A stretch of DNA of 43,654 bases from the NCBI GenBank assembly GCA_017461665.1, contig JAFTXI010000026.1, positions 1-43,654 of the forward strand, given 5' to 3'. Below are positions 15,637 to 43,375 of this stretch, piece after piece. This stretch comes from Bacteroidales bacterium (GTDB lineage Bacteria > Bacteroidota > Bacteroidia > Bacteroidales > F082). Positions within the stretch are counted from its first letter, which is position 1; every line of letters begins with the position of its first letter. A program made the position numbers and the translations under genes. A model generated the notes under the pieces. It saw nothing but the letters and a program-made list of their open reading frames with translations, ran no database searches and was not told the DNA's origin.

Positions 15637-15688
15637 AGACGCGTCAATCACACTGTTGAAAATAAACAAGAATGTGATTGACACGTCT
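15637..15688. repeat. GAGACG stem-loop repeat, copy A
   Basis: Arms AGACGCGTCAATCACACT (15637-15654) and AATGTGATTGACACGTCT (15671-15688) pair with two mismatches around 16 nt. It is one member of the dispersed family described in the findings and lies 12 bp after ilvE. Confidence 0.7.
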
Positions 15689-15698
15689 GAGATTAGAC

Positions 15699-15716
15699 GT
15701 TACACAGATGTGTGAC
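15699..15716. other. Imperfect palindrome GTTACACAgaTGTGTGAC
   Basis: Eight-base arms with one mismatch around two bases, between the stem-loop and the terminator after ilvE. It could be part of the repeat cluster or a binding site; nothing else supports a function. Confidence 0.3.
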
Positions 15717-15740
15717 AGAAGATTAATACCCGAAAACCCA

Positions 15741-15788
15741 ATAGAGACGTCATTGCAAAATGGTGTCTCTATTTTTTTTTTTTTTTTT
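15741..15788 (+). terminator. Terminator downstream of ilvE with a T17 run
   Basis: Arms ATAGAGACGTCATT and AATGGTGTCTCTAT (12 of 14 complementary) are followed by 17 consecutive T (15772-15788). The arms carry the same GAGACG motif as the dispersed stem-loops. Confidence 0.8.
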
Positions 15789-15810
15789 GAAAAAAAACTT
15801 AAAATTCCTA

Positions 15811-15841
15811 TTGGTTTTATTTTGATTAATGTGTATTTTTG
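15811..15841 (+). promoter_or_regulatory. Promoter of the first Omp28-like gene
   Basis: TTG at 15811-15813 and TATTTTTG at 15834-15841 are separated by 20 nt, a good match to the Bacteroidota -33/-7 arrangement, about 54 nt before the ATG. Confidence 0.6.
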
Positions 15842-15894
15842 TAGCCTAATTTTTTTTAGAAAATTATGAATATTAATAATTAAAATTTAACCAA

Positions 15895-17658
15895 ATGAAA
15901 AAATTATCTTTACTCGTAGGTGCTTTGTTAGCTTGTTTTGTTCAAGTTAATGCACAAGATTTCGTTTCTACGACACCATCAAACAGAAATGTTATCATTG
16001 AAGAATTTACAGGTAGAAATTGTGGCTATTGCCCAGATGGTCACGTTATCGCAAATGAAATCGTACATAACAATCCAGGTAGAGTATGGTCTGTTAACGT
16101 ACATGCTGGTGGTTTCTCACCAACCTCTTATCCTAACTTAAATACAACAGAAAGCAATACCATTCTCAATGGTTTTGGTGTTTCAGGTTTCCCATCAGGA
16201 GCAGTTAACCGTTCAGACTATACCGCTTTGAACAGAGGTCAATGGGCATCATACGCTTCACAACAAATGGGTCAAGTTGCTGAATGTAATGTTGCTGGTC
16301 AGGCTGTTGTTAACCCAGCTACACGCGTTGCTAAAATCACTGTTGAAGTTTATTACACAGGAAATAGCGCAGAAGCAAACAACTATCTTACAGTTATGAT
16401 GTTACAAGATAGTATATGGGGTTCACAATCAGGTGGTTCTTACAATCCAGAACAATATGTAAACGGTCAATATTGCCACATGCATATTCTTCGTTCAACA
16501 GTAACTCCTACATGGGGTGAACAAATTGCTCCAACAACAGCTGGTACATTGATTACTAAAGAATACATGTACGAAATTCCTGAAACAATAGGTACTCCTA
16601 ATGGAGTTGAAGTTGACTTAGACAATATCACATTCCTTGCTTTTGTAACAGAAAGCGTTAAAACTCCAGGTAATGCTACACGTCCAATCCTCAATGCTTG
16701 TGAATTGTCAACACTCCAAGGTACAGAAGAAGCTATTTATCCTTACGTAGCTAATGTTAGCTCAGCTTCAGGTATCTCATGTTCAGAAACCAGAACATTT
16801 AATATAGGTGTTACAAATGGTGGTTTAGACGAAATTACATCTCTCAAATTAGAAGCTTACGTTGATGGCGAATTGGCAACAGAACAACCATGGGAAGGCA
16901 GTATCGCTTCATACGCAGGTACAATAGTTGAAATGGACATCAATGTCCCTGGTGGAACACATGATGTTGAAATTAAAATTGTTGAAGCTAACGGCGCAGC
17001 ATTTGAATTTGTAAAAGAGGTATCAGTATCATTCGATGAATGGGTTAATGTTCCAATCGAAGGTGAGGAAGAAGAATTCACAATCGAAATCATGCAAGAT
17101 AAATATGGTAACCAAATCACATGGGAACTCATCGGTTCAGACGGAACAGCTTTATCTTCAGGCGGTCCTTACACAATGTTGGTTGGTGGTTCAGCAGCAA
17201 CACAATTACACCAAGCAACAGTAACTATTCCTAATGGCGAATGCGTTAAATTCGTTATCAAAGACGCTGTCGGTAACGGTATCTGCTGCCAATATGGTGA
17301 AGGCTACTATCAAATTAAGAACGCTGCCGGTGACATCATCGTTGATGGTGATGGCGACTTCGGTACAGAAGCTGCTATCTTGTTGTCGGTAGGCGCTGGC
17401 GATGCAGTACAAGAAAATATCGCTACAGAAACATACAATGTATTCCCTAACCCTGTAAAAGACGTTCTTACAGTTAAAGGTGAAAATATGAGCCAAGTAG
17501 TTATCTACAACTCAATCGGTCAATTGGTTGAAACAATCAACACAAACGATAATGAAGTTAAAGTTAACGTAAGCGCTTACCAAAATGGTATGTATTTCAT
17601 CAACGTTATCGACAACAACGGTGAAATGACAACAACAAAAGTATCAGTCCTACATTGA
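15895..17658 (+). CDS. Omp28-like secreted protein with T9SS type-A sorting domain (paralogue 1)
   Basis: A 587-residue exported protein. A signal peptide (about 1-20, ending VNAQ) precedes an Omp28-type thioredoxin-like domain at about 25-260: NVIIEEFTGRNCGYCPDGH with C-x-x-C, VNVHAGGFSPTSYPNLNT, GFPSGAVNR, AECNVAGQAVVNP, and EVYYTGNSAEANNYLTVMML. An Ig-like part follows. A beta-sandwich domain at about 390-500 has TIEIMQDKYGNQITWEL, SGGPYT, and DAVGNGICCQYGEGYY. The C-terminus is a T9SS type-A sorting signal (NVFPNPVKDVL, IYNSIGQLV, YQNGMYFINV). It should be exported by Sec, then secreted by T9SS and attached to the cell surface. The thiol motif suggests redox or adhesin function, unproven. 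It heads a row of three paralogues. Confidence 0.88.
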   Translation: MKKLSLLVGALLACFVQVNAQDFVSTTPSNRNVIIEEFTGRNCGYCPDGHVIANEIVHNNPGRVWSVNVHAGGFSPTSYPNLNTTESNTILNGFGVSGFPSGAVNRSDYTALNRGQWASYASQQMGQVAECNVAGQAVVNPATRVAKITVEVYYTGNSAEANNYLTVMMLQDSIWGSQSGGSYNPEQYVNGQYCHMHILRSTVTPTWGEQIAPTTAGTLITKEYMYEIPETIGTPNGVEVDLDNITFLAFVTESVKTPGNATRPILNACELSTLQGTEEAIYPYVANVSSASGISCSETRTFNIGVTNGGLDEITSLKLEAYVDGELATEQPWEGSIASYAGTIVEMDINVPGGTHDVEIKIVEANGAAFEFVKEVSVSFDEWVNVPIEGEEEEFTIEIMQDKYGNQITWELIGSDGTALSSGGPYTMLVGGSAATQLHQATVTIPNGECVKFVIKDAVGNGICCQYGEGYYQIKNAAGDIIVDGDGDFGTEAAILLSVGAGDAVQENIATETYNVFPNPVKDVLTVKGENMSQVVIYNSIGQLVETINTNDNEVKVNVSAYQNGMYFINVIDNNGEMTTTKVSVLH

Positions 17659-17677
17659 TATATGAACTAAATAAAGA

Positions 17678-17713
17678 AGAGACGTTGCGAGTAGAGCAAC
17701 GTCTCTTTTTTTT
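17678..17713 (+). terminator. Terminator between Omp28-like paralogues 1 and 2
   Basis: AGAGACGTTGC (17678-17688) and GCAACGTCTCT (17696-17706) form a perfect 11-bp stem with a 7-nt loop, followed by T8. It shares the GAGACG end motif with the dispersed stem-loops. It implies that paralogue 1 is transcribed mostly on its own. Confidence 0.9.
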
Positions 17714-17789
17714 AAAATGAAAACGGTAATTATTCATTAATGATTATTAACAAACTATAGTAGAATAATTGCAATAAAATAATAATCAA

Positions 17790-19547
17790 ATGAAAAAGCT
17801 TTTACTTTCAATATGTGCGTTCTTGTTATGCGGTCAGAGTCTTTACTCTCAGGAGTTCGTCTCTACCGAAGTCGTAGACAGAAATATCTTGATAGAAGAG
17901 TTTACCGGAAAAGCCTGTATCAATTGTCCTCTTGGTCATGCAACGGCAAATATGCTTGTTGATGAGAATCCAGGAAGAATTTATATTGTTAATGTTCACG
18001 CAGGTTATTATTCCACAACGGCTTATCCCAATCTCAATACTAATATGGGCGATTCTCTGTTGCTCGCTCATAATGTAGGATTGTTTCCTTCGGCATTGAT
18101 AAATCGCACTTCGGATGGCTCGTTGCCATATAACACGTGGGAAAATACTGTGGCGCAACAACTTCCTCTGACTGCAGAATGTAATGTCGCAGGTCAGGTC
18201 GTAATAAATCCAGTGTCGCGCATCGCTACCGTAATAGTTGAGGTTTATTATACTTCCGATAGTAATGAAGAAGCTAACTATCTCACAATATACATGTTGC
18301 AAGATAGTATAATAGGGAATCAAACAGGTCATGGTTATAATCCAGATCAAGTTGTTAATGGCGAACAATACTGCCATCAACACATTCTTCGTGATGTTAT
18401 TACTCCAACTTGGGGCGATGAGATTGCTCCTACAACAGCAGGAACTCTTATCACGAAGACATACGAATACGAAATTCCAGAGATAATAGGCGACCCTAAC
18501 GGCGTTGAGATAGATTTCGATAACCTTCATTTCTTCGCCTTCGTTACGGAAAAACATCAAGGCAGTTCGACAAAACCTGTTCTTAATGTCAATTCGTTAA
18601 ATACATTCTTAGGAAGTCAAGAGGAAACGCTTCCTTATTTGAAGGAAATATTTCCTAAATCGCAGGTGGCTTGTTCCGATGATCGTGCGATAAGTGCTAA
18701 GGTGCAAAACTGCGGTACTCAGGATATTACATCAATAAAGTTTGAATATAAAGTTGATAATGCTGATGTGACGGAATTTACTTGGGAAGGAACCATCGCC
18801 TCAGGAGAAATTGCGATAATTGATAATGACGTGAATATTCCTTTGGGAAATCATGTTGTTGAAGTGAGAATTGTTGAGACTAACGGACAGACCTTCGATA
18901 TGGAAATGACAACATCCGTTGCGACTCAAGAATATCAGACTCTTTATATTGATGAGACAGAGAAAGAATTTACGCTTCAGATTATGCAGGATAAACACGG
19001 AAAACAGACTACTTGGGATGTGGTATCTTCTGAAAATGAAGTGCTTCTCTCAGGTGGACCTTATAATACATTAATCGGTGGCAGTACAGAACTTCATGAA
19101 GAACAATTGCTTTTGCATGACGGCGATTGTATCAAGTTTACTATCAGAGATAGCGAAGGTGACGGAATTTGTTGTGTTAATGGTGATGGTTATTACAGAC
19201 TTATCGACAGTGAAGGAAATATCATCATTGATGGCGACGGCGAGTTCGGAAGCGAGACTTTCTTTATGTTGAATGTTGTACGTGGCGACGCTATCGAAGA
19301 GATGACAAACGACGATACACCTTATAACATATATCCGAATCCTGCTAACGGCATCATCACAATAGAAGGTGAAAATATTAACAATATCATGTTGTTTAAT
19401 ACTTTAGGTCAATTGGTTAAAGATGTTAAAGTTACATCAAATTCTACCTCGATAAATATTGACGATTTGCAAAATGGTATGTATATAGTTAATATTATCG
19501 ATGATAAATCTTGTGTTAAGACATATAAAGTTTCAGTTCAGAATTAA
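17790..19547 (+). CDS. Omp28-like secreted protein with T9SS type-A sorting domain (paralogue 2)
   Basis: A 585-residue protein with the same architecture as its neighbours: signal peptide (ending YSQEF), thioredoxin-like domain with IEEFTGKACINCPLGH (C-x-x-C), TAECNVAGQVVINPVSRIATVIVEVYYT, and QDSIIGNQ. The beta-sandwich domain has TLQIMQDKHGKQTTWDV, LSGGPYNTL, and DSEGDGICCVNGDGYY. The T9SS type-A signal is NIYPNPANGII, LFNTLGQLV, LQNGMYIVNI. It keeps the paired Cys (ICC) of the sandwich domain. It is followed by paralogue 3 after only 20 bp, so 2 and 3 are probably co-transcribed. I see no convincing -7 box in 17714-17789. Confidence 0.88.
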   Translation: MKKLLLSICAFLLCGQSLYSQEFVSTEVVDRNILIEEFTGKACINCPLGHATANMLVDENPGRIYIVNVHAGYYSTTAYPNLNTNMGDSLLLAHNVGLFPSALINRTSDGSLPYNTWENTVAQQLPLTAECNVAGQVVINPVSRIATVIVEVYYTSDSNEEANYLTIYMLQDSIIGNQTGHGYNPDQVVNGEQYCHQHILRDVITPTWGDEIAPTTAGTLITKTYEYEIPEIIGDPNGVEIDFDNLHFFAFVTEKHQGSSTKPVLNVNSLNTFLGSQEETLPYLKEIFPKSQVACSDDRAISAKVQNCGTQDITSIKFEYKVDNADVTEFTWEGTIASGEIAIIDNDVNIPLGNHVVEVRIVETNGQTFDMEMTTSVATQEYQTLYIDETEKEFTLQIMQDKHGKQTTWDVVSSENEVLLSGGPYNTLIGGSTELHEEQLLLHDGDCIKFTIRDSEGDGICCVNGDGYYRLIDSEGNIIIDGDGEFGSETFFMLNVVRGDAIEEMTNDDTPYNIYPNPANGIITIEGENINNIMLFNTLGQLVKDVKVTSNSTSINIDDLQNGMYIVNIIDDKSCVKTYKVSVQN

Positions 19548-19567
19548 TAACAATAAAATGAATTAAG

Positions 19568-21313
19568 ATGAAAAAAATTGCATCATTATTTTTCGCTTTG
19601 ACATTTTTTATTGGAGCCAATGCGCAGCAATATGTGTCAACAGAAGTCGAAAACAGAAACCTTCTCATCGAGGAATTTACCGGAAGAGATTGTCCAAACT
19701 GTCCTGCCGGTCACATCATCTCCTCCGACATCATTCACACTAACGAAGGTCATGCTTGGAGTATCGGTATTCATACAGGTTATTTTGCTCCAACGACTTA
19801 TCCTAATTTGAACACCGACATCAGCGCTGTTCTCGTTGATCCTTACGATGATGTGAATGGCGGTTTAGGTTATCCTGCAGCAGTCTTGAATCGTTCGACT
19901 GAACAAGCAGTAGGTCGCGGTCAATGGAGAGACATCGCTGCTGAAGTGTTGCAACAAACAGCCGAGTGTAATGTGGCAGGTCATGTGGTAATCAATCCGA
20001 TAACACGTGTGGCAACGATAACAACTGAAGTTTATTATACTGCCAACAGCAACGAAGATACCAACTATCTCACAATAGTTATGGTTCAAGATAGTATCAT
20101 CGGACAGCAGGCATACGCTAATACCAATCCAGAACAATATATGGGTGATGATATGTACTGTCATCTTCATGTGCTTCGCGATGTTGTTACCGAAGATTGG
20201 GGAGATGAGATTGCTCCAACAACAGCAGGTTCTTTAGTGACAAAGACTTACGAATATACTATCCCAGAAATCATAGGTAACCCAAACGGCGTTGAAGTCG
20301 ATATGGATAACATCTATTTCATCGCTTTCGTGACTGAAAAATATCAGGGAATTGCTACACGTCCAATTCTTAATGTTAATAAACTTTCACAAAACTATTC
20401 TTCAGGTGAGGCTATTTCTCCTTATATGGCAGACATTGTAGTTGATGAGGGAATATTTTGTAAAAATGAAAGAACATTTAAAAACTATGTAAGAAATATT
20501 GGTTCCGATGAAATCACATCTATGAAGTTTGAAGTAAGCTATGAAAGTGGTGAAACTATCGAACAAGAATGGAACGGAAATATCGCTTCAGACCAAATAG
20601 AACGCATCGACTTTACCTTCGACATACCTGTAGGTGAGAATGATTTCACTTTTGATATTGTGGAAGTTAATGGTGAGGCTTTCGATTATTCAAAGACTGT
20701 GACATATAAATGTGACGAGTGGAACACTTTGACGTTGGCTTGTGTTGAAGAAACAGAAGTAACAATCGAAATACTTCAAGATAAATATGGTAATCATACT
20801 TCATGGGAGTTCTTGTCGTCAGATAATACAGTTTTGGCGTCTGATGGTCCATATATGTATCTTCCTAACACAGATAGCGAATTACATACATATACTGTAA
20901 CTGTCAGAGTTGGTGAATGTTATAAGTTTGTTATATATGACAGCTATGGAAATGGATTAGATGGCGGATATTACAGAATCTTGGATGATATGGGAAATGT
21001 CGTCGTTGATGGAAGCGTCGAGTTCACCGACATGACATATAGCGTTCTTTCTGTTGAGCCAGGTGTATCGCTTGATGAAACAATGACATCATCATCTTTG
21101 AATGTATATCCTAATCCTGCAAACGACTTTGTGAAACTATCAAAAGTCAATGGTCAGTTTTCAATGGTGAAGATATATAATATGATGGGAATGTTAATTG
21201 ATGAGATTCAGGTTAATTCTGATGAAATAGAAATCAATATCTCTGATTATAATCCTGGAATTTATTTCCTCAATGTTGATGGAGAAAGCGTTAAGGTAAT
21301 TAAGAATTCATAA
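19568..21313 (+). CDS. Omp28-like secreted protein with T9SS type-A sorting domain (paralogue 3)
   Basis: A 581-residue member of the trio. Signal peptide (ending NAQQ), thioredoxin-like domain with IEEFTGRDCPNCPAGH, and NPITRVATITTEVYYT are kept. The sandwich domain is altered: DSYGNGLDGGYYRI has lost the ICC cysteine pair found in paralogues 1 and 2. The C-terminal T9SS signal is NVYPNPANDFV, IYNMMGMLI, YNPGIYFLNV. The last residues (VIKNS) and stop lie at the start of a 7-bp repeat tract. It probably shares a transcript with paralogue 2 and ends near the hairpins at 21331-21412. Confidence 0.88.
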   Translation: MKKIASLFFALTFFIGANAQQYVSTEVENRNLLIEEFTGRDCPNCPAGHIISSDIIHTNEGHAWSIGIHTGYFAPTTYPNLNTDISAVLVDPYDDVNGGLGYPAAVLNRSTEQAVGRGQWRDIAAEVLQQTAECNVAGHVVINPITRVATITTEVYYTANSNEDTNYLTIVMVQDSIIGQQAYANTNPEQYMGDDMYCHLHVLRDVVTEDWGDEIAPTTAGSLVTKTYEYTIPEIIGNPNGVEVDMDNIYFIAFVTEKYQGIATRPILNVNKLSQNYSSGEAISPYMADIVVDEGIFCKNERTFKNYVRNIGSDEITSMKFEVSYESGETIEQEWNGNIASDQIERIDFTFDIPVGENDFTFDIVEVNGEAFDYSKTVTYKCDEWNTLTLACVEETEVTIEILQDKYGNHTSWEFLSSDNTVLASDGPYMYLPNTDSELHTYTVTVRVGECYKFVIYDSYGNGLDGGYYRILDDMGNVVVDGSVEFTDMTYSVLSVEPGVSLDETMTSSSLNVYPNPANDFVKLSKVNGQFSMVKIYNMMGMLIDEIQVNSDEIEINISDYNPGIYFLNVDGESVKVIKNS

Positions 21314-21323
21314 TGCATAATTA
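21298..21323. repeat. 7-bp phased micro-repeat (attcata/atgcata) at the paralogue 3 stop
   Basis: Units attaag, attcata, atgcata, attattt span the last codons and stop of the gene. The same unit set occurs at 14401-14418. Confidence 0.45.
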
Positions 21324-21330
21324 TTTGTAT

Positions 21331-21349
21331 GGACACATTGAATGTGTCC
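21331..21349. repeat. GGACACATT hairpin, copy 1
   Basis: GGACACATTgAATGTGTCC is a perfect 9-bp inverted repeat around one base. A second copy lies at 21984-22002 on the other side of the small PH gene. Confidence 0.65.
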
Positions 21350-21354
21350 TATGG

Positions 21355-21412
21355 AGAGACGTATCAATAATATTATGAAAATTAATAAGTTATTGTTGCT
21401 ACGTCTCTTTTT
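21355..21412 (+). terminator. GAGACG stem-loop repeat, copy D, likely terminator
   Basis: Arms AGAGACGTATCAATAATA and TATTGTTGCTACGTCTCT pair with few mismatches, followed by T5. It belongs to the GAGACG family and probably ends transcription of the Omp28-like genes. Confidence 0.65.
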
Positions 21413-21448
21413 AAGATTAATGGATCAAGGACAAAAGGAGGAGTCTCA

Positions 21449-21934
21449 ATGAAAATAAAATCATTCTTTCCATGGGATTTTTTGGTAATTGTAATCACAG
21501 TTGTTATCAATGCTATCTTCATATTATGCGTCTGGGATGCTTTTCAAACTGAGGTTTTATTGTTTGAGATTATCTCGTTATCTTTTATAACAATACCATT
21601 GCTTTTTATGCCAATCAGACTGATTGTTTCTGATAGAAATGTAATAATAATAAAACTATGTGGAAGAATTAAAATAAAACTGTCTGATATTAAATCATGT
21701 TGGATAATAAAAGATAGTAATGAGTTTTTTAATAATGGTGTTAGAAGATTTGGCAGTGGAGGTATGTATGGGATTTTAGGTCATTTCAAACACGATAATC
21801 TTGGAAAGCTTAGATGTTTCATCACTCATAGAGAACAGTGTTTTGTGGTTAAGACGAAAAATGATAAAGTATTTGTCATTAGTTCACCAAAACGAGATGA
21901 GATTGTTGAGTTTATTAATAAATATAAGGTTTAA
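21449..21934 (+). CDS. Small membrane protein with a bacterial PH-like domain
   Basis: A 161-residue protein. Two hydrophobic helices (about 10-28 and 38-58) are followed by a soluble domain of about 100 residues: LIVSDRNVIIIKLCGRIKIKLSDIKSCW, FGSGGMYGILGHFKHDNLGKLRCF, QCFVVKTKNDKVFVISSP, and a closing helix (RDEIVEFINKYK). This fits the bacterial PH (bPH) pattern. It is preceded by AGGAGG-like sequence (aaaggaggag, 21434-21443), a strong ribosome-binding site for this genome. It is enclosed by two copies of the GGACACATT hairpin plus GAGACG stem-loop. The function is unknown. Confidence 0.65.
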   Translation: MKIKSFFPWDFLVIVITVVINAIFILCVWDAFQTEVLLFEIISLSFITIPLLFMPIRLIVSDRNVIIIKLCGRIKIKLSDIKSCWIIKDSNEFFNNGVRRFGSGGMYGILGHFKHDNLGKLRCFITHREQCFVVKTKNDKVFVISSPKRDEIVEFINKYKV

Positions 21935-21983
21935 AGAAAAAACCTTAAACCTTAATTGTTAATTTATGATACGTAATTATTTT

Positions 21984-22002
21984 GGACACATTCGGTGTGT
22001 CC
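21984..22002. repeat. GGACACATT hairpin, copy 2
   Basis: GGACACAttcggTGTGTCC is a 7-bp inverted repeat, the same length and direction as the copy at 21331-21349. Confidence 0.6.
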
Positions 22003-22021
22003 GTACAAAATTATAAATAGA

Positions 22022-22076
22022 AGAGACACAGCAATTACATATTGTTTATTTTTAATGGTGTAATTGATACGTCTCT
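22022..22076. repeat. GAGACG stem-loop repeat, copy E
   Basis: Arms AGAGACACAGCAATTACA (22022-22039) and TGTAATTGATACGTCTCT (22059-22076), with three mismatches. The loop begins TATTGTT, as in copies F, G and H. It lies between the convergent PH gene and pyrF. Confidence 0.75.
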
Positions 22077-22087
22077 ACAATTGTAAA

Positions 22088-22897
22088 TTATAAAAACGCT
22101 GCCATTTGTTCTTGTAATTTTCTTGCTTCTTCAGCGGCTTTCTCTGCGAAGTCTTTTTCCTTTGAAGCGTAGATGATGCCTCTTGAAGAGTTGACCAACA
22201 AACCACATTCTTTGTTGAGACCGTATTTCGCTACTGCTGCCAAGTCGCCGCCTTGTGCTCCAACACCTGGTACTAACAAGAAATGATTTGGTAACATCTT
22301 TCTTATCTCGCCTAATTCTTCAGGGTGTGTTGCTCCAACAACGTACATCATCTTGTTGTCGTCAGCCCAAGTGCTTGACTTAGAAAGTACTTCCTTATAA
22401 AGTTCATGACCCTCGATGTTGAGATATTGGAAGTCTTTTGAACCTTTGTTTGATGTGAGAGCCAACAAGATAACCCATTTGTTATCAAAGCCTAAAAATG
22501 GTTCTACAGAGTCTAATCCCATGTAAGGCGCTACTGTTATAGCATCGCTACTCATTGTCTCAAAGAACGCTCTTGCATAGTTGGCTGATGTGTTTCCGAT
22601 GTCGCCTCTCTTAGCGTCGGCGATGACGAAAATCTCAGGATAGTTAGCCTTGATGTATTTTATTGTCTTGTCCAAACTTTCCCAACCTTTAGCTCCATAT
22701 ACTTCATAGAAAGCTGTGTTAGGTTTGTAAGCTACTGTATATTGTGCAGTCGCATCGATAATCTGCTTGTTGAACTCGAAAACAGGGTCTTCACATTCCA
22801 AAAGATGCTGTGGAATCTTGTTGATGTCGGTGTCTAAACCAACGCAAAGAAACGACTTCTTTGCAAATATCTGCTCTACTAATTGTTGCTTGTTCAT
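22088..22897 (-). CDS. pyrF: Orotidine 5'-phosphate decarboxylase (type 2)
   Basis: A 269-residue enzyme that converts OMP to UMP, the last step of de novo pyrimidine synthesis. The ATG at 22897 is chosen because [24 protein letters not shown] is the family N-terminus; the longer in-frame start at 22936 would lie in a repeat. The catalytic segment [11 protein letters not shown] is present with its Lys and Asp residues. [11 protein letters not shown] is the phosphate-binding loop near the end, and [10 protein letters not shown] follows. It is the last gene of the minus-strand group and is separated from prfA by stem-loop copy F. Confidence 0.95.
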
Positions 22898-22924
22898 GAT
22901 GTAAATTATTTTGTTATTCTTGTT

Positions 22925-22976
22925 GAGACGCATCAATTACGTATTGTTAATTATCATAGGAGTATTGGTACGTCTC
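22925..22976. repeat. GAGACG stem-loop repeat, copy F
   Basis: Arms GAGACGCATCAATTAC (22925-22940) and GTATTGGTACGTCTC (22962-22976), one base shorter on the right. The loop is GTATTGTTAATTATCATAGGA. It lies between prfA and pyrF, where it could attenuate transcription into pyrF. Confidence 0.7.
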
Positions 22977-22982
22977 TACATT

Positions 22983-24074: not shown

Positions 24075-24094
24075 CTTTGGTAGGTTAATCTTTA

Positions 24095-29601: not shown

Positions 29602-29638
29602 AAAGTACGCTTCAATGAAAAGGAAGCGTACTTTTTTT
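29602..29638 (+). terminator. Terminator after the BNR-propeller gene
   Basis: AAAGTACGCTTC (29602-29613) and GAAGCGTACTTT (29623-29634) form a perfect 12-bp stem with a 9-nt loop and a T7 run. It lies against the stop of the convergent gene at 29637. Confidence 0.9.
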
Positions 29639-30473
29639 ATAGGATTATCTCCGGATGCTGCGACAAATATAAGTCTCTAAGAGGAATACTTAAAATAAAA
29701 CAAACGTCAGCTAACCTTAGGTTACATTTTTTGTTATCTCCGTTTTTGTCTTTAACATCATATTCGGGAGAATTATAAACAAAATTCTTGATTTTGTCGA
29801 ATTCTTCGTTATCACAAAATGATATACAAGCCATAAGCGCAGATGACTCTACGTCTAATGCAGTTCTTGGTTTATTATTATCAATTGCTGAAAATAGAAT
29901 ATCTTTGTTTCTCTGAATGAGTTCCATTCCATCAATCTCTTGTAAGATGAACTTGCCAAATTCGCTAAGACTTAGAGGACTGTTCTTTAATAAAAAGAAT
30001 GCCAATGCGTCTTCGTATTTTAGACTCAAGAATTCTTTTATGGAAAAAACTTCTTTTTTGAGAGAAGCGACATCAACTTTGAGTGTTGCGACATCAACTT
30101 TGAGTGTTGCGACATCAACCTTGAGTATTGCGACATCCTTCTTGAGAGAAGCGACATCAACTTTAAGGTTACTAATATCTTCCTTTACAACCTTGAAATT
30201 TTCTCTTGTCTCACGTTTGAAATCATTGAAATCATTTCTTAGATTATCAATGCTTTGTTGGATGTCTCGCTTAAATTCGTAGAGCTGTTTCTTTAAAAGT
30301 TCGATGCTATCATCATGAGAGTCACACTTGGCGTGAGCTGTGCGTTCATCAATTTGATTGATACGCTGTGTTGTTTTGCCGAAATTAAACGCTTGATTTA
30401 CAATGAACCAAACTCCTCCTAAAATTGTTGCGATGCTAGCAATAATAATGCTTAATAGTTCAATGGTGTTCAT
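29637..30473 (-). CDS. Membrane-anchored coiled-coil protein with heptad tandem repeats
   Basis: A 278-residue protein. An N-terminal membrane helix (about 5-27) is followed by a charged coiled coil at about 53-150. Residues 102-143 are near-identical 7-residue repeats of the form LKVDVAT. A C-terminal helical domain (about 150-278; ALAFFLLKNSPLSLSEFGKFIL, SALMACISFCDNEEFDKIKNFVY) has no family I recognise. Topology suggests a short N-terminal anchor with the rest cytoplasmic. The repeats would extend or shorten a rod. It has its own TATATTTG promoter and converges on the gene ending at 29582. Confidence 0.7.
   Translation of the reverse strand: MNTIELLSIIIASIATILGGVWFIVNQAFNFGKTTQRINQIDERTAHAKCDSHDDSIELLKKQLYEFKRDIQQSIDNLRNDFNDFKRETRENFKVVKEDISNLKVDVASLKKDVAILKVDVATLKVDVATLKVDVASLKKEVFSIKEFLSLKYEDALAFFLLKNSPLSLSEFGKFILQEIDGMELIQRNKDILFSAIDNNKPRTALDVESSALMACISFCDNEEFDKIKNFVYNSPEYDVKDKNGDNKKCNLRLADVCFILSIPLRDLYLSQHPEIIL
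30067..30171 (-). repeat. 21-bp tandem repeat encoding the heptads
   Basis: Five 21-bp units begin at 30067, 30088, 30109, 30130 and 30151, each opening with gcgacatc on the plus strand. Units 1 and 2 are identical, which suggests recent duplication. Confidence 0.85.
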
Positions 30474-34242: not shown

Positions 34243-34257
34243 CCGTTCTATTTAAAG

Positions 34258-36042: not shown

Positions 36043-36080
36043 AATCTTAAAAATTTAGAATTTTAGAACACCAGAATTTA
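36040..36080. repeat. 8-bp phased micro-repeat (tttagaat)
   Basis: Units tttagaat, tttagaac, accagaat, tta directly follow the stop codon of the acyltransferase gene. Confidence 0.5.
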
Positions 36081-36081
36081 T

Positions 36082-36131
36082 AGACGTGTCAATTACGTAT
36101 TGTTCATTTTATTGGTGTAATTGGTGCGTCT
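36082..36131. repeat. GAGACG stem-loop repeat, copy G
   Basis: Arms AGACGTGTCAATTAC and GTAATTGGTGCGTCT pair over 15 positions; the three non-Watson-Crick positions are all G-U type on the plus strand. The loop starts GTATTGTT. Confidence 0.75.
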
Positions 36132-36167
36132 TTACCAAACATCAAAACTATTTGATGCCCATAATCG

Positions 36168-36198: not shown

Positions 36199-36254
36199 TC
36201 ATGCAGCATTTTATTTTTTTATTCGTTACTCAATCGAAATTGAATAATAATTGT

Positions 36255-36262
36255 TATTTTTG
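36255..36262 (+). promoter_or_regulatory. -7 element for the PspC-LiaF pair
   Basis: TATTTTTG lies 45 nt before the ATG at 36308. Confidence 0.5.
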
Positions 36263-36307
36263 AGGATGTAATTCAATTATGATTAATAACTAATAATTTT
36301 ACATGAA

Positions 36308-36787: not shown

Positions 36788-37706
36788 GGAAAATAATAAA
36801 GACAGTGGCTTAATCAACGGCATAGTTCTCATCGCGATAGGCGTGATAGCACTCTTGGTAACCTTCTTCGATTTCTCTATAGACTGGTCGGAAATTTTAA
36901 AATTATGGCCTATTTTCATCATAGTTTTCGGATTGTCGATATTGCCAGTGAATAAAATGGTAAAATCAATATTGGTCGTGATAATGATATTATTGTCTTG
37001 TGTTTTGTATTATAATGCTGTGAAAGAAGATGATGTTGTGGAAGAAGTATTATATTATGATAATTCAAATAATAAAGATGTGACCGTACAAGAATTTTCT
37101 GAGTCTTTCAAAGAAGGTATTAATACTGCAAATGTGGAGATAAATTATGGAGCTGGTTCTCTCTATCTCAATGCTCCTGTTGAAGAACTTGTAAAAGCTT
37201 CTAATGCAAGTAATTATTATGTTCAAGATTTTTCGGTGAAATATAAAGACGATCATGCCGATATATGTTTTGATGGAAAAGACAATATCTCTGTTAACGG
37301 AAATACCATCGATTCTAATCATTTTAATATTGCATTAAATAATAATCCAATATATGATTTTGAATTGAATGTTGGAGCTTGCGGTATCAACTTCGATTTC
37401 AGTGATTATAAAGTATCTGACATCGATATTAACAGTGGAGCCTGCGACATTGACCTCAAATTAGGCGATTTATACGATAAGACAGAAGTCGATATTGAAA
37501 CCGGTGTCAGCGACATTAGGATTGGCATTCCGTCGAACTCGGCTTGTCGCGTCGAATGTGAGTCGGTGTTGAGCAGCAAAAGTTTCGAAGGATTTAATAA
37601 GAAATCGTCGAATGTTTACGAGACATCGAATTATCATTCCGCTAAAAATCAGATTGAGATAAGATTCAACGGAGCCATCTCTGATTTTGAGATTTATAGA
37701 TATTAA
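36780..37706 (+). CDS. LiaF-like membrane protein with a C-terminal beta-helix/toast-rack domain
   Basis: A 308-residue protein. Membrane segments fill about 10-85 (GIVLIAIGVIALLVTFF, IFIIVFGLSILPVN, ILVVIMILLSCVLYY) as in DUF5668. A linker precedes an exported or cytosolic beta-rich domain (about 115-308) with repeating strands: VEINYGAGSLYL, DFELNVGACGINFDF, DINSGACDIDLKLG, and VDIETGVSDIRIGIP. This recalls the LiaF C-terminal and toast-rack families. LiaF proteins restrain stress-responsive two-component systems. No kinase or regulator is adjacent. Translational coupling to the PspC gene suggests a complex. Confidence 0.8.
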   Translation: MSKENNKDSGLINGIVLIAIGVIALLVTFFDFSIDWSEILKLWPIFIIVFGLSILPVNKMVKSILVVIMILLSCVLYYNAVKEDDVVEEVLYYDNSNNKDVTVQEFSESFKEGINTANVEINYGAGSLYLNAPVEELVKASNASNYYVQDFSVKYKDDHADICFDGKDNISVNGNTIDSNHFNIALNNNPIYDFELNVGACGINFDFSDYKVSDIDINSGACDIDLKLGDLYDKTEVDIETGVSDIRIGIPSNSACRVECESVLSSKSFEGFNKKSSNVYETSNYHSAKNQIEIRFNGAISDFEIYRY

Positions 37707-37709
37707 GGT

Positions 37710-37737
37710 AGTCAATAAGTCTATGAGTCTATGAGTT
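37710..37737. repeat. 8-bp phased micro-repeat (agtctatg)
   Basis: Units agtcaata, agtctatg, agtctatg, agttttt just after the LiaF-like gene. It is the inverse of the array at 37824-37860, about 90 bp away. Confidence 0.65.
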
Positions 37738-37823
37738 TTTGTCATGAATTATCGAAAATTTAAACAGAATATAAAACATTCAAAGATAATTTTTGTTACT
37801 AAAAACGACAGACTATCATAAAC

Positions 37824-37860
37824 ACTTATTGACTCATAGACTTATTGACTCACAGACTTT
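37824..37860. repeat. 8-bp phased micro-repeat (cttattga/ctcataga)
   Basis: Units cttattga, ctcataga, cttattga, ctcacaga, cttt end 6 bp before the dnaJ-like ATG, leaving no room for a Shine-Dalgarno sequence. Confidence 0.65.
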
Positions 37861-37866
37861 AAAAAC

Positions 37867-38769
37867 ATGGAATACAAAGATTATTATAAGATATTAGGTG
37901 TTGAACGTTCTGCCTCGCAAGATGAGATTAAAAAAGCATATCGAAAGTTGGCAGTGAAGTATCATCCCGACAAGAATCCTGACGACAAGGTTGCGGAGGA
38001 GAAGTTTAAGGAGATTTCGGAGGCTTATCAGGTTATTGGCAATGCCGACTCACGTAAGAAATACGACGAACTTGGTGCCAACTGGAAACAATATGAGAAC
38101 GCGGGTTTTGGTGGATTTGGCGGTGGAAGTCAAGGCTTTAGTGCGAGTGGATTCTCCGATTTCTTCGATATGTTTTTTGGTGGAGCTCAAGGCGGAGCTG
38201 GTTTCGACATCAGAGACTTCATGGGCGGCATGGGTGGCGGTCGTCGCTCGACGCGTCCAGCTAAAGGTAGCGATCTTAATGCAACAATAAACCTCACTCT
38301 GTTAGAGGCATACCAAGGTTCGCAACGTCTCTTAGACCTCAATGGCAATACAATAAAAATATCGATAAAACCAGGAGTACGCGATGGTCAGGTGTTGCGC
38401 ATCAAAGGTAAAGGTAATCCTGGAAGAAACGGCGGCGACAACGGCGACCTCCTGATAAAAGTCGCGGTAATGAACGACCCTGCATATCAACGCGATGGCG
38501 ACGACCTCATAAAGAATGTCAACATAGATGTTTATACTGCAATACTCGGAGGTAAGATAACTGTCAATACTCTCAAAGGCGATGTCAATGTCCCGATAAA
38601 ACCTCAGACACAGAATAATAGCACCTTGCGACTGAAAGGGATGGGAATGCCGCATTATGGAAAAGAAGGTGCCGGAGCCTTGTTGCTGAAAGTACAACTG
38701 CTTCTCCCTGAACACTTCTCACAAAAAGAATTAGAACTAATAAAAGAAGCTTCATTAGAAGGGAGATAA
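37867..38769 (+). CDS. DnaJ-family co-chaperone of the CbpA type
   Basis: A 300-residue protein. The J domain (1-70) has the HPD motif (H33-P34-D35) in [10 protein letters not shown], which activates DnaK ATPase. A Gly/Phe-rich region (about 76-130; [17 protein letters not shown]) follows. The C-terminal substrate-binding domains (about 135-295) contain [35 protein letters not shown], and [12 protein letters not shown]. There is no C-x-x-C-x-G-x-G zinc finger, so it is a class B/CbpA-type protein. It has its own spacer and probably forms a single unit. Confidence 0.92.
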
Positions 38770-38772
38770 AAA

Positions 38773-38811
38773 TTTTAGAATCTTAGAACTTTAGAATCTG
38801 AGAATCTCTCA
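38773..38811. repeat. 8-bp phased micro-repeat (ttagaatc)
   Basis: Units ttagaatc, ttagaact, ttagaatc, tgagaatc, tctc directly after the dnaJ-like stop. Confidence 0.6.
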
Positions 38812-38925
38812 TAATTTTTTTTGAAATACGCTATATAAATAAGAGTTTTTTTCGTTACTTTGCAATTCGTTAAGATGTCGTATAACGGCATCTGTTTTTT
38901 AGTTATAAATTTGAGTTTTTTAGAA

Positions 38926-41259
38926 ATGCAAAGAAGAATACACCTTACAACTATAGTGACTTTATTTCTGATTTTTATGGGTAATATCGCTATTGCTCAG
39001 AACGATAACAATGTAAAAGGTTTTGTTTATGAGAAATCGACAGGCGAACCGATGATGTTCTGTAACGTCTATCTCAAAGGAACAACGATAGGAGCCTCTA
39101 CCGACATCAACGGTTTCTTTAACATAACGAAGATACCAGACGGTAATTATCAGCTTCTTGTCACCAACCTCGGATATGATACAATCAGAGACGATATAAG
39201 TCTTCGTAACAATGAGGTGTTGAACAAGAAATATTACCTTGAAGAATCGACAGTTCTACTTCAAGCAGTTAACATCACAGCCGATAAGATAGAAGCGAGA
39301 ACCGAGACCAAGACTTCTGTTGTAAATATCACACCAAAGACCATCACCAAGATTCCTTCTATGGGAGGACAAGCCGACCTCGCGCAATATCTGCAAGTCA
39401 TTCCAGGTGTCGTCTTCACTGGCGACCAGGGCGGACAGCTGTATATCAGAGGTGGATCACCTATACAAAACAAGGTGCTTCTTGATGGTATGGTCATCTA
39501 TAATCCGTTCCATTCCATCGGTCTCTTCTCGGTCTTCGATACCGATATCATCAGGAACGCTGAGATTTACACCGGCGGCTTCGGAGCTGAATATGGTGGA
39601 CGCATCTCCTCTGTGATGGACATCACCACACGCGACGGTAACAAAAAACGCATCGCCGGTAAAGTAGGTGCAAGTACATTCGGTGCAAAACTGACATTGG
39701 AAGGTCCTATCAAGAAAGCTAAGAATCCTGAAGATATGAGCGTCTCTTTCATCTTGTCGGCGAAAAACTCTTACTTGGAACAGACAAGTCAAGGTATATA
39801 TAAAGGTATCCTCGATGGTGAGGTGCTGCCTTACAACTACAGAGACCTTTATGGTAAGTTGTCGCTGAACTCATCTAATGGCAGTAAGATTAACTTCTTC
39901 GGATTTAACTTCACCGACGACGTAAATAACTATAAGTCAATATCGACATTTGGCTGGGATTCGTATGGCGGCGGTGTCAATTTCGTCGTGATTCCTGGAA
40001 AGTCGCCTGTACTCATCGAAGGTAACATCGCCTTCTCCGATTATGAGGCTGTCCTCGAGGAACAGAACAATCCAAACAGATCGAGTTCTATCAATGGCTT
40101 CAATGCCGGTTTCGCCTTCACCTATTTCATCGGAAAGAACTCTCTTAAATATGGTGTCGAGATGCTCGGATTTAAGACAGTCTTCGATTATACCAAGTCG
40201 AATGGTATCAATATAAGTCAAGTCGAAAACACTACAGAGTTAGGAGCTTACATTAAATACAAAGCACAATTCAACGACTTTATCTTGGAGCCGAGTTTGA
40301 GAATACAGGCTTACGCTTCTCTTTCTGAAGTGTCGCCGGAGCCGCGTCTCGCCCTTAAATATAACGTGACAGATTGGTTCCGTGTCAAAGCAGCTGGTGG
40401 CTTGTACTCGCAGAATCTTATCGCAGCCAACAGCGACCGCGACGTCGTAAACCTCTTCTACGGATTCCTCTCTGGTCAGTCAAATATCCCTACATATTTC
40501 AATGGTGAGAAAGTGACAACGAAGCTTCAGAAAGCTGCTCATTATATACTTGGAACAGAATTCGATGTGGCTAACAACACGACTCTCAATGTGGAAGGCT
40601 ATTATAAAGACTTTCGTCAGCTGACGAGCATGAATAGAAATCAAATCTTTAGCGAACAAGACGCTCCTCCAGGAACACCGCAGATAGAGAAAAAAGACTT
40701 CATGATAGAGACAGGCGACGCCTACGGTGTTGATATCTCAATAAAATATGAAGATAAGAGATGGTATCTCTGGGGCGCATATTCCTTGGCATACGTCAAC
40801 AGAGACTATGAAAATGCCGATGGTGAAATAGTTACCTACAGAACACATTACGACCGACGTCATAACGTCAACCTCATTGCTACATATACAGCAGGTGCAA
40901 AAAATCAATGGGAACTTAGTGCGCGCTGGAACTTCGGAACGGGATTCCCTTTCACAATGGTCACTGGATTCTATGAAGAACTGCCTTACGACAATATCTA
41001 CTTCGACCCTTATACAGAAAGCGGAAACGTTGGTCTGTTGTATGGCGACCTTAACACAGGACAACTGCCGACATATCATCGCTTAGACTTGGACATAAAA
41101 CGTAAATTCTATTTCACCGAGACAATGTTGCTCGAAGCCGATTTCAGCATCACCAATGTCTATGACAGAAGAAATATTTTCTACATCGACGTGATGTCTG
41201 CAACATCTATATATCAGCTGCCACTGATGCCAAGTCTCGGATTAACATTATCATTCTAA
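38926..41259 (+). CDS. TonB-dependent outer-membrane receptor
   Basis: A 777-residue outer-membrane transporter. The ATG at 38926 gives a proper signal peptide (QRRIHLTTIVTLFLIFMG, cleaved after IAQ); the in-frame extension to 38860 does not. A CarboxypepD_reg-like domain (about 28-112; VKGFVYEKSTGEPMMFCNVYL) is followed by the plug (about 130-235; DLAQYLQVIPGVVFTGDQGGQLYIRGG, LDGMVIYNPFHSIGLFS, GGFGAEYGGRISSVMD). The rest is a beta-barrel ending in an aromatic residue (LGLTLSF). There is no SusD-like gene beside it, so it is not a SusCD pair. The substrate is unknown. It is followed after 2 bp by ptrB. Confidence 0.9.
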   Translation: MQRRIHLTTIVTLFLIFMGNIAIAQNDNNVKGFVYEKSTGEPMMFCNVYLKGTTIGASTDINGFFNITKIPDGNYQLLVTNLGYDTIRDDISLRNNEVLNKKYYLEESTVLLQAVNITADKIEARTETKTSVVNITPKTITKIPSMGGQADLAQYLQVIPGVVFTGDQGGQLYIRGGSPIQNKVLLDGMVIYNPFHSIGLFSVFDTDIIRNAEIYTGGFGAEYGGRISSVMDITTRDGNKKRIAGKVGASTFGAKLTLEGPIKKAKNPEDMSVSFILSAKNSYLEQTSQGIYKGILDGEVLPYNYRDLYGKLSLNSSNGSKINFFGFNFTDDVNNYKSISTFGWDSYGGGVNFVVIPGKSPVLIEGNIAFSDYEAVLEEQNNPNRSSSINGFNAGFAFTYFIGKNSLKYGVEMLGFKTVFDYTKSNGINISQVENTTELGAYIKYKAQFNDFILEPSLRIQAYASLSEVSPEPRLALKYNVTDWFRVKAAGGLYSQNLIAANSDRDVVNLFYGFLSGQSNIPTYFNGEKVTTKLQKAAHYILGTEFDVANNTTLNVEGYYKDFRQLTSMNRNQIFSEQDAPPGTPQIEKKDFMIETGDAYGVDISIKYEDKRWYLWGAYSLAYVNRDYENADGEIVTYRTHYDRRHNVNLIATYTAGAKNQWELSARWNFGTGFPFTMVTGFYEELPYDNIYFDPYTESGNVGLLYGDLNTGQLPTYHRLDLDIKRKFYFTETMLLEADFSITNVYDRRNIFYIDVMSATSIYQLPLMPSLGLTLSF

Positions 41260-41261
41260 AT

Positions 41262-43301
41262 ATGAAAAAACCTGTAGCAAAAAAATATCCCCGTGAACTT
41301 ATCAAACACGGGGATATTCGTATAGATAATTATTATTGGCTTAATGAACGCGAAAATCCAGAAGTAATAGATTATCTTCAACAAGAGAATCTCTATCGGG
41401 AGACGATGATGAAAGATACCGAACAACTTCAGCAGGAACTCTATCAGGAGATATTGGGTCGTATAAAGCAAGAAGACGTCTCTTATCCGCTGAAAAGAAA
41501 TGGTTACTATTATTACTCGCGCTATGAGGAAGGAAAGGAATATCCTATCTATTGCCGACGTAAGGATAACATGGATAACCCAGAACAAGTCCTCTTGGAT
41601 GGAAACAAAATGGCTAAAGGTCATCACTATTTCGATATCGGCGCTTATAGCATAAGTCCTGATAACAGACTTATCGCTTATAGCATCGACACAGTGAGCC
41701 GACGTCAATATAACATCTATGTGAAAGATATTGAGACTGGTGTGATTTATAATGATGAGATAAGAAACACAACAGGCAACATGACGTGGGCTAACGATAA
41801 CGAGACTATTTTCTATAGTGAGAAAGACGAGTCGTTGCGTTCTTGCAAGATAAAGCGTCATCGACTGAAAGAAGATTCAGATAATGATGAGCTTGTATAT
41901 TTTGAAGATGACACTGCCTTTAATTGTTACGTAGGAAAGACAAAGTCGAGACATTATATCATGATAGTGTCGGAAAGCACGCTCTCTTCAGAGGTGCGTT
42001 TCATCGATGCCGATAGACCTTACGACGATTTTAAGATTTTTCAGAGACGTCAGAACGATATGTTGTACGGAATAGGTCATTATGGCGATAGTTTCTATAT
42101 CTTGACAAATGCTGATGGTGCGAAGAACTTCAAGATTATGAAGACATCCGTCGATAAGACAGAGAAAGAAAACTGGGTTGAGCTGATGGCGCATCGTGAT
42201 GATGTCTTGATAGAAGACTTCGACCTTTTCTCCGATTATTTGGTTGTTGAAGAACGTCGCGAGGGTTTGATAAACATAAGGATAAAGACATGGGACGGGG
42301 AAGAGGATTATTACATCGACTTCGGCGAGCCTTCTTATACAGCCTATACCTCAGCAAATCCCGACTTCGACTCTCATCTTTTGAGATATGGTTACAACTC
42401 CATGACGACGCCGAGTTCTTTGTATGAATACGATATGAAGGAACGTAAGGCGACACTCTTGAAACGTCAGGAGATAGTTGGTGGTTATGAGCCTTCCGAC
42501 TATGTCACGGAACGTCATTACGCTACTTCGCATGACGGTGTCAAAGTGCCTATATCTTTGGTTTATAAGAGAGGTCTTGAAAGAAACGGCGATAATCCTT
42601 TGGTGCTTTATGGCTACGGCTCGTATGGCAGCAGTATGGACGCGTATTTCTCCACGACCCGTCTTAGCCTCTTGAATCGTGGATTCGTATGGGCGATAGC
42701 GCATATCAGAGGCGGCGAGGAGATGGGACGTCAATGGTATGAAGACGGTAAGCTGCTGAAGAAGAAAAATACCTTTTTAGATTTTATCTCCTGCGGAGAA
42801 TATCTTATGAGAGAAAGATTTACCAATAATAGAAAGATGTTCGCTATGGGAGGCAGCGCAGGTGGTTTGCTCGTAGGTGCTGTCGCTAATATGGCACCTC
42901 AGATGTGGCGTGGAATAGTGGCACAGGTGCCTTTCGTCGATGTCGTCACGACGATGCTCGACGAGAGTATCCCGCTCACTACAGGAGAATATGACGAGTG
43001 GGGTAACCCTAATGTTAAAGAATATTATGATTATATGAAGTCGTATTCGCCTTACGACAATGTGGAGAGAAAAGACTATCCTGCTATGTTGGTGACGACG
43101 GGCTTGCACGACAGCCAGGTACAATATTGGGAGCCTGCGAAGTGGGTGGCGAAACTGAGAGAGGTGAAAACCGACGACAACCCTTTATATCTCAAAACCA
43201 ATATGGATTTCGGTCATGGCGGAGCATCCGGACGCTTTGAAAGTATTAAAGAAGTAGCATTGGAATACGCGTTCATTTTACAATTGACAATTAACAGTTG
43301 A
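41262..43301 (+). CDS. ptrB: Oligopeptidase B (S9 prolyl oligopeptidase family)
   Basis: A 679-residue serine peptidase. The N-terminal helix and beta-propeller (about 1-400; DNYYWLNERENPEVIDYL, YYYYSRYEEGKEYPIYCR) gate a C-terminal alpha/beta-hydrolase with catalytic S532 in GGSAGG, D617 in LHDSQV, and H652 in GHGG. The set matches protease II, which cuts short peptides after basic residues in the cytoplasm. No signal peptide is present. It directly follows the TonB receptor gene (2-bp gap), which suggests uptake and breakdown of peptides by one operon; that pairing is an inference. The last residues (QLTINS) come from a 7-bp repeat. Confidence 0.93.
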   Translation: MKKPVAKKYPRELIKHGDIRIDNYYWLNERENPEVIDYLQQENLYRETMMKDTEQLQQELYQEILGRIKQEDVSYPLKRNGYYYYSRYEEGKEYPIYCRRKDNMDNPEQVLLDGNKMAKGHHYFDIGAYSISPDNRLIAYSIDTVSRRQYNIYVKDIETGVIYNDEIRNTTGNMTWANDNETIFYSEKDESLRSCKIKRHRLKEDSDNDELVYFEDDTAFNCYVGKTKSRHYIMIVSESTLSSEVRFIDADRPYDDFKIFQRRQNDMLYGIGHYGDSFYILTNADGAKNFKIMKTSVDKTEKENWVELMAHRDDVLIEDFDLFSDYLVVEERREGLINIRIKTWDGEEDYYIDFGEPSYTAYTSANPDFDSHLLRYGYNSMTTPSSLYEYDMKERKATLLKRQEIVGGYEPSDYVTERHYATSHDGVKVPISLVYKRGLERNGDNPLVLYGYGSYGSSMDAYFSTTRLSLLNRGFVWAIAHIRGGEEMGRQWYEDGKLLKKKNTFLDFISCGEYLMRERFTNNRKMFAMGGSAGGLLVGAVANMAPQMWRGIVAQVPFVDVVTTMLDESIPLTTGEYDEWGNPNVKEYYDYMKSYSPYDNVERKDYPAMLVTTGLHDSQVQYWEPAKWVAKLREVKTDDNPLYLKTNMDFGHGGASGRFESIKEVALEYAFILQLTINS

Positions 43302-43308
43302 CAATTAT
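43276..43308. repeat. 7-bp phased micro-repeat (acaattg/acaatta) at the ptrB stop
   Basis: Units acaattg, acaatta, acagttg, acaatta encode the end of ptrB and its TGA stop. Confidence 0.65.
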
Positions 43309-43322
43309 GACTTATAGAATTT

Positions 43323-43375
43323 GAGACGTATCAATGACATATTGTTCAATGTTATAGGTGTCATTGGTGCGTCTC
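43323..43375. repeat. GAGACG stem-loop repeat, copy H
   Basis: Arms GAGACGTATCAATGACAT (43323-43340) and GTGTCATTGGTGCGTCTC (43358-43375). The stem base pair that is T-A in copies E and G is G-C here, a paired change. Confidence 0.8.

Follow-up and report, generated by a model that had tools for sequence, protein, structure and literature searches.

REP systems and a set of stem-loops in Bacteroidales

Systems in which repetitive extragenic palindromic (REP) elements occur together with a REP-associated tyrosine transposase (RAYT, or TnpAREP) offer the clearest example in bacteria of a transposase serving dispersed hairpins. The subject here is a set of stem-loops in a contig of 43,654 nt (JAFTXI010000026.1, positions 1 to 43,654; hereafter the window) from the Bacteroidales metagenome assembly GCA_017461665.1. 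This source genome, G000, comprises 2.49 Mb in 60 contigs and is 94% complete; its named relatives are assemblies from gut and rumen that carry the labels Bacteroidales, Lentimicrobiaceae and Candidatus Limimorpha. Six stem-loops of the window, copies A, D, E, F, G and H, are all of a 50-52-nt hairpin type, CAATTACACC...TGTAATTG, for which we use the name family 52. The stem-loops are very probably REP elements of the GTAG superfamily, dispersed by a RAYT resembling those of TnpAREP subclass 2.4.

GTAG repeats were surveyed by Di Nocera et al. (2013; PMC3733652) in Proteobacteria, Cyanobacteria, Chloroflexi and the Planctomycetes-Verrucomicrobia-Chlamydiae (PVC) group, and the sections of that survey drawn on here give only CGTC repeats for the Bacteroidetes. 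The GTAG REPs of the survey, whose table gives stems of 5-13 bp, share several traits with the present set. GTAG stands at one end of the palindrome, several families coexist in a genome, RAYTs are flanked by the repeats, and copies lie mostly between co-directional or convergent genes, with some inside genes. In layout, family 52 differs from them by its 16-position arm, its internal 3x3 region and its loop of about 20 nt. The survey also describes the Rickettsia palindromic elements, which resemble the present set as short palindromes lying in frame in unrelated protein genes; those elements carry CGTC tags, whereas GTAG and a RAYT are found here. Intragenic REPs in general are reported in both PMC3733652 and PMC6006769.

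Subclass 2.4 of TnpAREP, as characterized in PMC6006769, resembles the system described here in its occurrence in Cyanobacteria and Bacteroidetes, in the in-frame REPs inside tnpAREP, and in the motifs NHxH, WQ and YIxxNP. It is accompanied by long or 'double foot' REPs with GT[AG]G, and short families here have a matching CTAC end. Family 52 is single-footed, unlike the double-foot REPs, and the RAYTs found here are likened to subclass 2.4 by their motifs and by the REPs inside the gene. The search rules of PMC6006769 specify a fully paired basal stem of 7-20 with a loop of 2-5 nt, or with a bulge of 1-3 nt and an upper stem of 1-10. These rules were drawn from 66 mainly proteobacterial families, four of which break them.

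According to PMC8266576, experimental data on REP substrates were available for no TnpAREP but that of E. coli until that study. In the model for this enzyme, it binds the folded GTAG strand, requires GTAG together with an unpaired stretch of the stem, and cleaves at CT; cleavage depends on the bulge being unpaired (PMC8266576). The E. coli REP/TnpAREP system (group 2) has in common with the present set the GTAG guide, conserved stem mismatches and strand specificity. Family 52 differs in having another sequence, another RAYT group and a covarying central pair within the mismatched region. Literature searches, with most subscription papers outside their scope, found no account of these repeats in Bacteroidales. 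The examined titles of papers that contain the motif GTAGAGACG concern primers and the like, and none concerns repeats.

Anatomy and covariation of family 52

The stem-loops of the source genome share one constant foot. The pattern GAGACG-N6..40-CGTCTC has 61 forward matches there, as against 0 for the reversed pattern, and GTAGAGACG-N4..36-CGTCT has 26 + 22 matches, as against 1 in the control. Hairpins on this foot come in lengths of 20 nt (TACGGACGTA), 21-22 nt (TCACTCCTGTGGC), 36 nt, 43-47 nt (CAATGTTTCC...ACACATTG) and the 50-52 nt of family 52. The hairpin set used for counts across lengths (n=81) consists of 86 candidates minus six (two compound, four lacking a true stem), with copy E added by hand.

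Family 52 was searched for with a covariance model trained on 26 copies from the source genome, window copies A and D-H being included in the training rows. The search covered 78 own-genome sequences with a cut-off of 61 bits. It placed family 52 at 61 bits or more in at least 68 places of the source genome, all of them distinct, and the copies of the window are thus far from the only ones. GTAG starts 63 of the 68 copies and variants start the other five, the tag columns being part of the model itself. Read on the GTAG strand, a copy consists of GTAG, a 5-bp foot (AGACG/CGTCT), the 3x3 internal region, an 8-bp upper stem (CAATTACA/TGTAATTG) and the loop. At one place on contig C58 of the source genome (L401:1328-1657), four copies stand in tandem about 90 bp apart, in an array that resembles a bacterial interspersed mosaic element (BIME).

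The six stem-loops of the window lie where a sequence-only reading had located them, and the model recovers all six (Table 1). Folded as single-stranded DNA and compared with 200 shuffles each, copies A, D, E, G and H give z values of -4.8, -5.2, -3.6, -3.0 and -4.8, respectively; copy F folds weakly (z -1.7), with 12 of 200 shuffles as good. Seven tagged AGACG/CGTCT hairpins are present in the window and none in its reversed sequence, and copy E, missed by the finder owing to its altered foot, is an eighth. The same reading was right that E-H face one way, with GTAG on the minus strand and A and D opposite. It was also right that the pair after CAAT takes all four Watson-Crick states, being C-G in A, A-T in D, T-A in E and G, and G-C in H. 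Its proposal of a GAGACG..CAAT stem common to the copies stands with two corrections: the foot of E is GAGACA/CGTCTC, and F is mismatched at the pair after CAAT.

Paired change persists well beyond the window, and neither outcome that the sequence-only reading named as refuting it, a genome-wide alignment devoid of covariation or an absence of further copies, came about. In a structure-free alignment of the 26 copies, with GTAG at the 5' end, 21 cells are changed on both sides, as against 4.2 in shuffles (0/500 as high), and RNAalifold recovers the same stem from this alignment. Among 65 distinct sequences, in an alignment fitted to the covariance model, 91.1% of 1039 cells are paired and 40 show change on both sides, as against 5.8 in shuffles (0/500). 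Further pair types over the 65 copies are unremarkable (104/500 shuffles). The model-free alignment of 26 copies agrees with the one fitted to the model. Over the 65 copies, the pair after CAAT is U-A in 47, G-C in 10, A-U in 4 and C-G in 1, with two other combinations and one gap. The middle pair of the 3x3 internal region is A-U in 48 copies, G-C in 8 and U-A in 8. Position 10 is mostly non-Watson-Crick (T.G 44, C-G 1, T-A 1, other 19), and position 12 is unpaired in 58 of the 65 copies.

The covariation may stem from selection on the fold by a RAYT, from divergence among source lineages, or from correction templated by the hairpin. Quasi-palindrome template switching is a known mutational process, and through it the copies could be inert relics that mutation bias keeps palindromic. 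The own RAYT is broken, as described below, and inside the coding sequence of hldD a paired change is seen at site 1, where the fifth foot pair goes from G-C to A-T (G153 vs G097); this change favours templated correction, and as a single pair in a single gene it is one case. Such correction should also mend positions 10 and 12, yet both are non-Watson-Crick in most copies, and the mismatches kept there favour recognition as the cause. We regard templated correction of inert relics as an unlikely source of the covariation.

RAYT genes and their association with the hairpins

A RAYT gene stands among family-52 copies in the source genome. A RAYT profile was made from alignment A1, which holds eight Bacteroidota RAYTs and in which H, H, WQ, Y and NP are invariant. 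A search of the genus at E 0.1 found matches in 76 of 99 genomes, G000 included. In G000 the profile detects a gene on contig C23, at 85071-85603, in two frames, 85071-85310 and 85298-85603 (E 7.5e-16 and 2.3e-16), and a third own-genome match is outside the matches listed. Family-52 copies lie 144 bp before this gene (locus L287) and 150 and 347 bp after it, and copy H of the window is identical to the copy 144 bp before it at 49 of 51 core bases. The earlier suggestion of REP-like mobile palindromes is thus upheld by the GTAG tag, the many dispersed copies and an own-genome RAYT flanked by family 52. Two 84-nt weak matches to the family model (L287:2129-2212 and 2326-2409) also lie beside this gene, on the strand opposite to the adjoining copies.

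The association recurs across the genus. The RAYT locus set (n=50) includes 20 loci chosen by hand, partly for known palindromes, and rates were therefore taken from the remaining 30 best-scoring loci. Hairpins with GTAGAGACG are found inside the gene or within 400 bp of it at 19 of these 30 loci, and inside it at 17 of the 30. RAYT genes of the 50-locus set contain 29 internal hairpins, in phase 0 (15) or phase 1 (14) and never in the phase with an in-frame TAG. The motifs HUH (NH[IFV]H), WQ and YIxxNP are present in the eight Bacteroidota RAYTs of alignment A1; the own copy is broken at HUH and lacks the P.

Another candidate mover is the IS200/IS605-type TnpA (class 1) of the genus. Its Y1 genes are common there, and counts of PF01797 and of palindromes are weakly correlated (rho 0.29, p 0.011, 75 genomes). 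PF01797 matches in the genus are mostly IS200-type genes with a Y..NQ-like motif, and the correlation therefore tests the wrong gene. No GTAGAGACG hairpin lies within 400 bp of any of 28 IS200-type Y1 loci in the genus or of 22 Y1 loci in the family's other genera. The control of 28 leaves out L198, L204, L205 and L206, which have RAYT-like or unclear Y motifs, and none of these four has such a hairpin within 400 bp. Moreover, the source genome has no match to Pfam Y1_Tnp (PF01797) at E 0.001, and 25 of 75 genus genomes have palindromes and no PF01797 match. The 0/28 result refutes this transposase as the main mover, and we give the idea almost no credence.

PF01797 was also rejected as a RAYT detector, since it finds mostly IS200-type genes and misses the own RAYT that the eight-RAYT profile finds. 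In distant Bacteroidota the weaker PF01797 hits are RAYTs with YIxxNP, in genomes preselected for high palindrome counts. IS200-type genes score far above true RAYTs with this model, and one RAYT of the genus reaches 23.1 bits with the cut-off at 23. Pfam-based RAYT counts in Bacteroidota are likely too low.

Short, non-coding, dispersed and palindromic elements could also be miniature inverted-repeat transposable elements (MITEs) of a classical DDE transposon. This origin is highly improbable in view of the GTAG asymmetry (63/68), the RAYT association, and the hldD site, the sole readable in-gene site, where no target duplication is apparent.

With its GTAG, its persistent mismatches and the CT in its foot, family 52 may follow the route of the E. 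coli TnpAREP. The RAYT would be a single-strand transposase of the Y1 HUH type, akin to those of subclass 2.4. Single-stranded DNA exposed during replication would fold into the hairpin, and the RAYT would recognise the folded strand via GTAG, foot, mismatches and inner stem. Cutting and joining of the hairpin would then spread copies to mostly intergenic sites, each RAYT lineage retaining its own stem type. In this manner we infer that a RAYT bound, cut and moved family 52, and that in the source genome it did so before its gene broke.

Several observations weigh against dispersal by a RAYT. The own RAYT shifts frame at the HUH motif and has Y-I-K-N-N-I where YIxNNP is expected. Judged by these features the gene is broken, unless there is an assembly error, and since it is the sole RAYT found in the source genome, present activity there is doubtful. 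No RAYT match at E 0.1 was obtained in 23 of the 99 genus genomes, among them G079, which is 99% complete and has 69 palindrome hits. G107, G106 and G094 have family 52 and no RAYT match, although a RAYT could be hidden where assemblies are incomplete. Eleven of the 30 RAYT loci are without a GTAGAGACG hairpin within 400 bp, and the 5-bp basal stem and loop of about 20 nt break the search rules of PMC6006769. A-H themselves yielded no clean empty site attributable to a single event, their intergenic flanks being of low complexity and changing too fast. Family 52 is a real and abundant REP family with its RAYT, ordinary in kind, and the set to which it belongs is unusually rich.

Stem types and RAYT lineages

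Stem types track RAYT lineages. Among 35 RAYTs, identity between the proteins correlates with similarity between their stems (Mantel r 0.44, 0/2000 permutations as high), and a correlation is also seen among pairs below 70% identity (r 0.21, 10/2000). L287 and L298 were left out of this test, L298 being a duplicate of L265. A 26-nt array is found at one RAYT of G153 and 24-nt copies at one RAYT of G156. Long forms occur at the RAYTs of G130 and G147, which are intact and of the family-52 type, TGCCATGGCG at G067, G127 and G090, and GGATGAAAATCC-like stems at G014 and G119. In stem type the first RAYT of G130 matches a G153 RAYT, to which it is 61% identical, and differs from the second G130 RAYT (54%). 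G153 itself hosts three RAYTs with three stem types. Shared descent accounts for part of the correlation between RAYT and stem, and cognate pairs predict the same.

Distribution and turnover at orthologous sites

Every one of the 75 genomes sampled from the genus has palindromes with GTAGAGACG (7 to 185 hits), as do 5 of 74 genomes from the family's other genera (1 to 7 hits). In the phylum sample they are patchy, being present in 135 of 395 genomes with up to 121 hits, in agreement with the statement in the sequence-only reading that such palindromes are common in Bacteroidota. Family 52 is found in 11 closely related species, with 46-55 matches each among the best 55 scored, a count that may include weaker families. 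Beyond those 11, it has one marginal match (G081) and none elsewhere in the other 88 of 99 genus genomes.

A comparison of occupied and empty sites in relatives, proposed in the sequence-only reading, shows presence and absence at orthologous sites, the one clean empty site lying inside a gene (hldD, described below). Three of 11 species carry an element between the RF-1 and OMPdecase genes: family 52 in G000 (copy F) and, in G102 and G153, the 43-47-nt type. Copy A lies at the 3' end of the aminotransferase gene, where G102, G089 and G106 have hairpins with other upper stems. Copy G is missing from the corresponding gap in all five more distant relatives. As a separate observation, intergenic gaps of the genus are filled with iterated short words (AACAATTGACAATT, CATAATTCATAATG, GAGTTGCTGAGTTAC, GACTCATAGACTTATT), which differ between close species at a given gap.

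Across all families, 63 of 78 hairpins classified by a simple open reading frame (ORF) rule lie outside ORFs. Such a location also suits hairpins that act as RNA, for example as terminators, 3'-end stabilisers or processing sites, with the covariation arising from selection on an RNA fold. In co-directional gaps, 32 of 48 hairpins lie nearer the 3' end of the upstream gene, and the GTAG strand is sense in 32 of 48 and antisense in 16, the antisense copies speaking against an RNA role. A T-rich flank (at least 6 T in 9, on at least one side) accompanies 18 of the 81 hairpins, T-runs following those at 15745 and 17680 in the window; the other 63 lack one, and a GC stem with a T-run is not a family trait. 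G.U is frequent at position 10, as an RNA fold would allow. On the other hand, the RF-1/OMPdecase gap is occupied in just 3 of 11 species, and by two different families, and no Rfam family matched the window. We consider an RNA role as the explanation of the set quite improbable. Reuse by the host as RNA elements is compatible with a REP origin, and the REP interpretation has no need of an RNA role.

Copies inside genes

The shortest hairpins lie mostly in coding sequence. All nine 20-nt copies are in ORFs of at least 80 aa by the simple rule, and six are in convincing genes, namely hldD (twice) and genes for a U32 peptidase, a radical SAM protein and two alpha-2-macroglobulin-like proteins. 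In all six, GTA is a codon (V-E-T-Y-G-R-T-S and variants). The remaining three ORFs are short or have the copy at their extreme start. At one hldD site, cleanly empty in 26 of 29 loci, G000, G097 and G153 have an in-frame element, which makes the occupied allele 18 bp longer, with 24 bp in place of about 6 bp. At a second hldD site (L344-L354), the linker varies in length between close species and reads like translated filler (for example QQTTVNRQQTSSTKIFNSQLSTF), and filler thus seems to enter coding sequence in frame.

Features of the window

Two further short hairpins of the window have the foot of A-H and different stems (Table 1). The one at 15745-15768 probably belongs to the 22-nt REPs or is a terminator derived from such an element, and the one at 17680-17704 is possibly a terminator. 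Three adjacent ORFs of the window (15895-17658, 17790-19547 and 19568-21313) each encode an Omp28 domain and a Por_Secre_tail sorting domain. In the ORF at 29637-30473, 21-bp direct repeats at 30037-30188 comprise whole codons and give seven-residue repeats.

Table 1. Family-52 copies (REP assignment very probable), other short hairpins and filler-word gaps; positions are those of the window unless a locus is named
Feature	Position	Strand	Remarks
Copy A, family-52 REP	15633-15692	+	GTAG tag and 52-nt hairpin; 70.8 bits
Copy D, family-52 REP	21353-21410	+	Tag changed to GGAG; 62.3 bits
Copy E, family-52 REP	22020-22078	-	One substitution in the 3' foot; 3' of the OMPdecase gene; 78.8 bits
Copy F, family-52 REP	22922-22979	-	RF-1/OMPdecase gap; upper stem decayed; 65.9 bits
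Copy G, family-52 REP	36078-36135	-	Tag changed to GTAA; 3' of an acyltransferase gene; 65.7 bits
Copy H, family-52 REP	43320-43378	-	3' of a prolyl oligopeptidase gene; 76.4 bits
Short hairpin, AGACG foot	15745-15768	not assigned	ATAG tag on both sides, then T-run
Short hairpin AGACGTTGC/GCAACGTCT	17680-17704	+	REP-like foot, GAAG tag, then T-run
Filler-word gaps	L152-L162		Around the OMPdecase gene
Filler-word gaps	36043-36080; 37710-37858
Filler-word gap	L076, after 9779

Significance

This gut Bacteroidales genus contains dozens of RAYT/REP pairs with a common guide and foot and differing inner stems, and the pairs come and go among close species. Since so many pairs differ in their inner stem, the recognition code is directly testable. 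These RAYTs can be overlooked, because PF01797 misses them or scores them weakly. What should interest specialists in this set is that many RAYT/REP pairs reside together with a single foot and inner stems of their own, and its in-frame copies show repeats turning into protein sequence. We tentatively suggest that GTAG and AGACG could be common to many Bacteroidota RAYT/REP pairs, with the inner stem as the private recognition code that separates them, an idea we put somewhat below even chances. If this is true, one genome can host several RAYT/REP pairs without cross-reaction, in-frame peptides (V-E-T-Y-G-R-T-S and relatives) give short families a way to spread, and a family such as 52 can outlast its own transposase. 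The genus would then be a natural lock-and-key series for how a single-strand transposase picks its hairpin.

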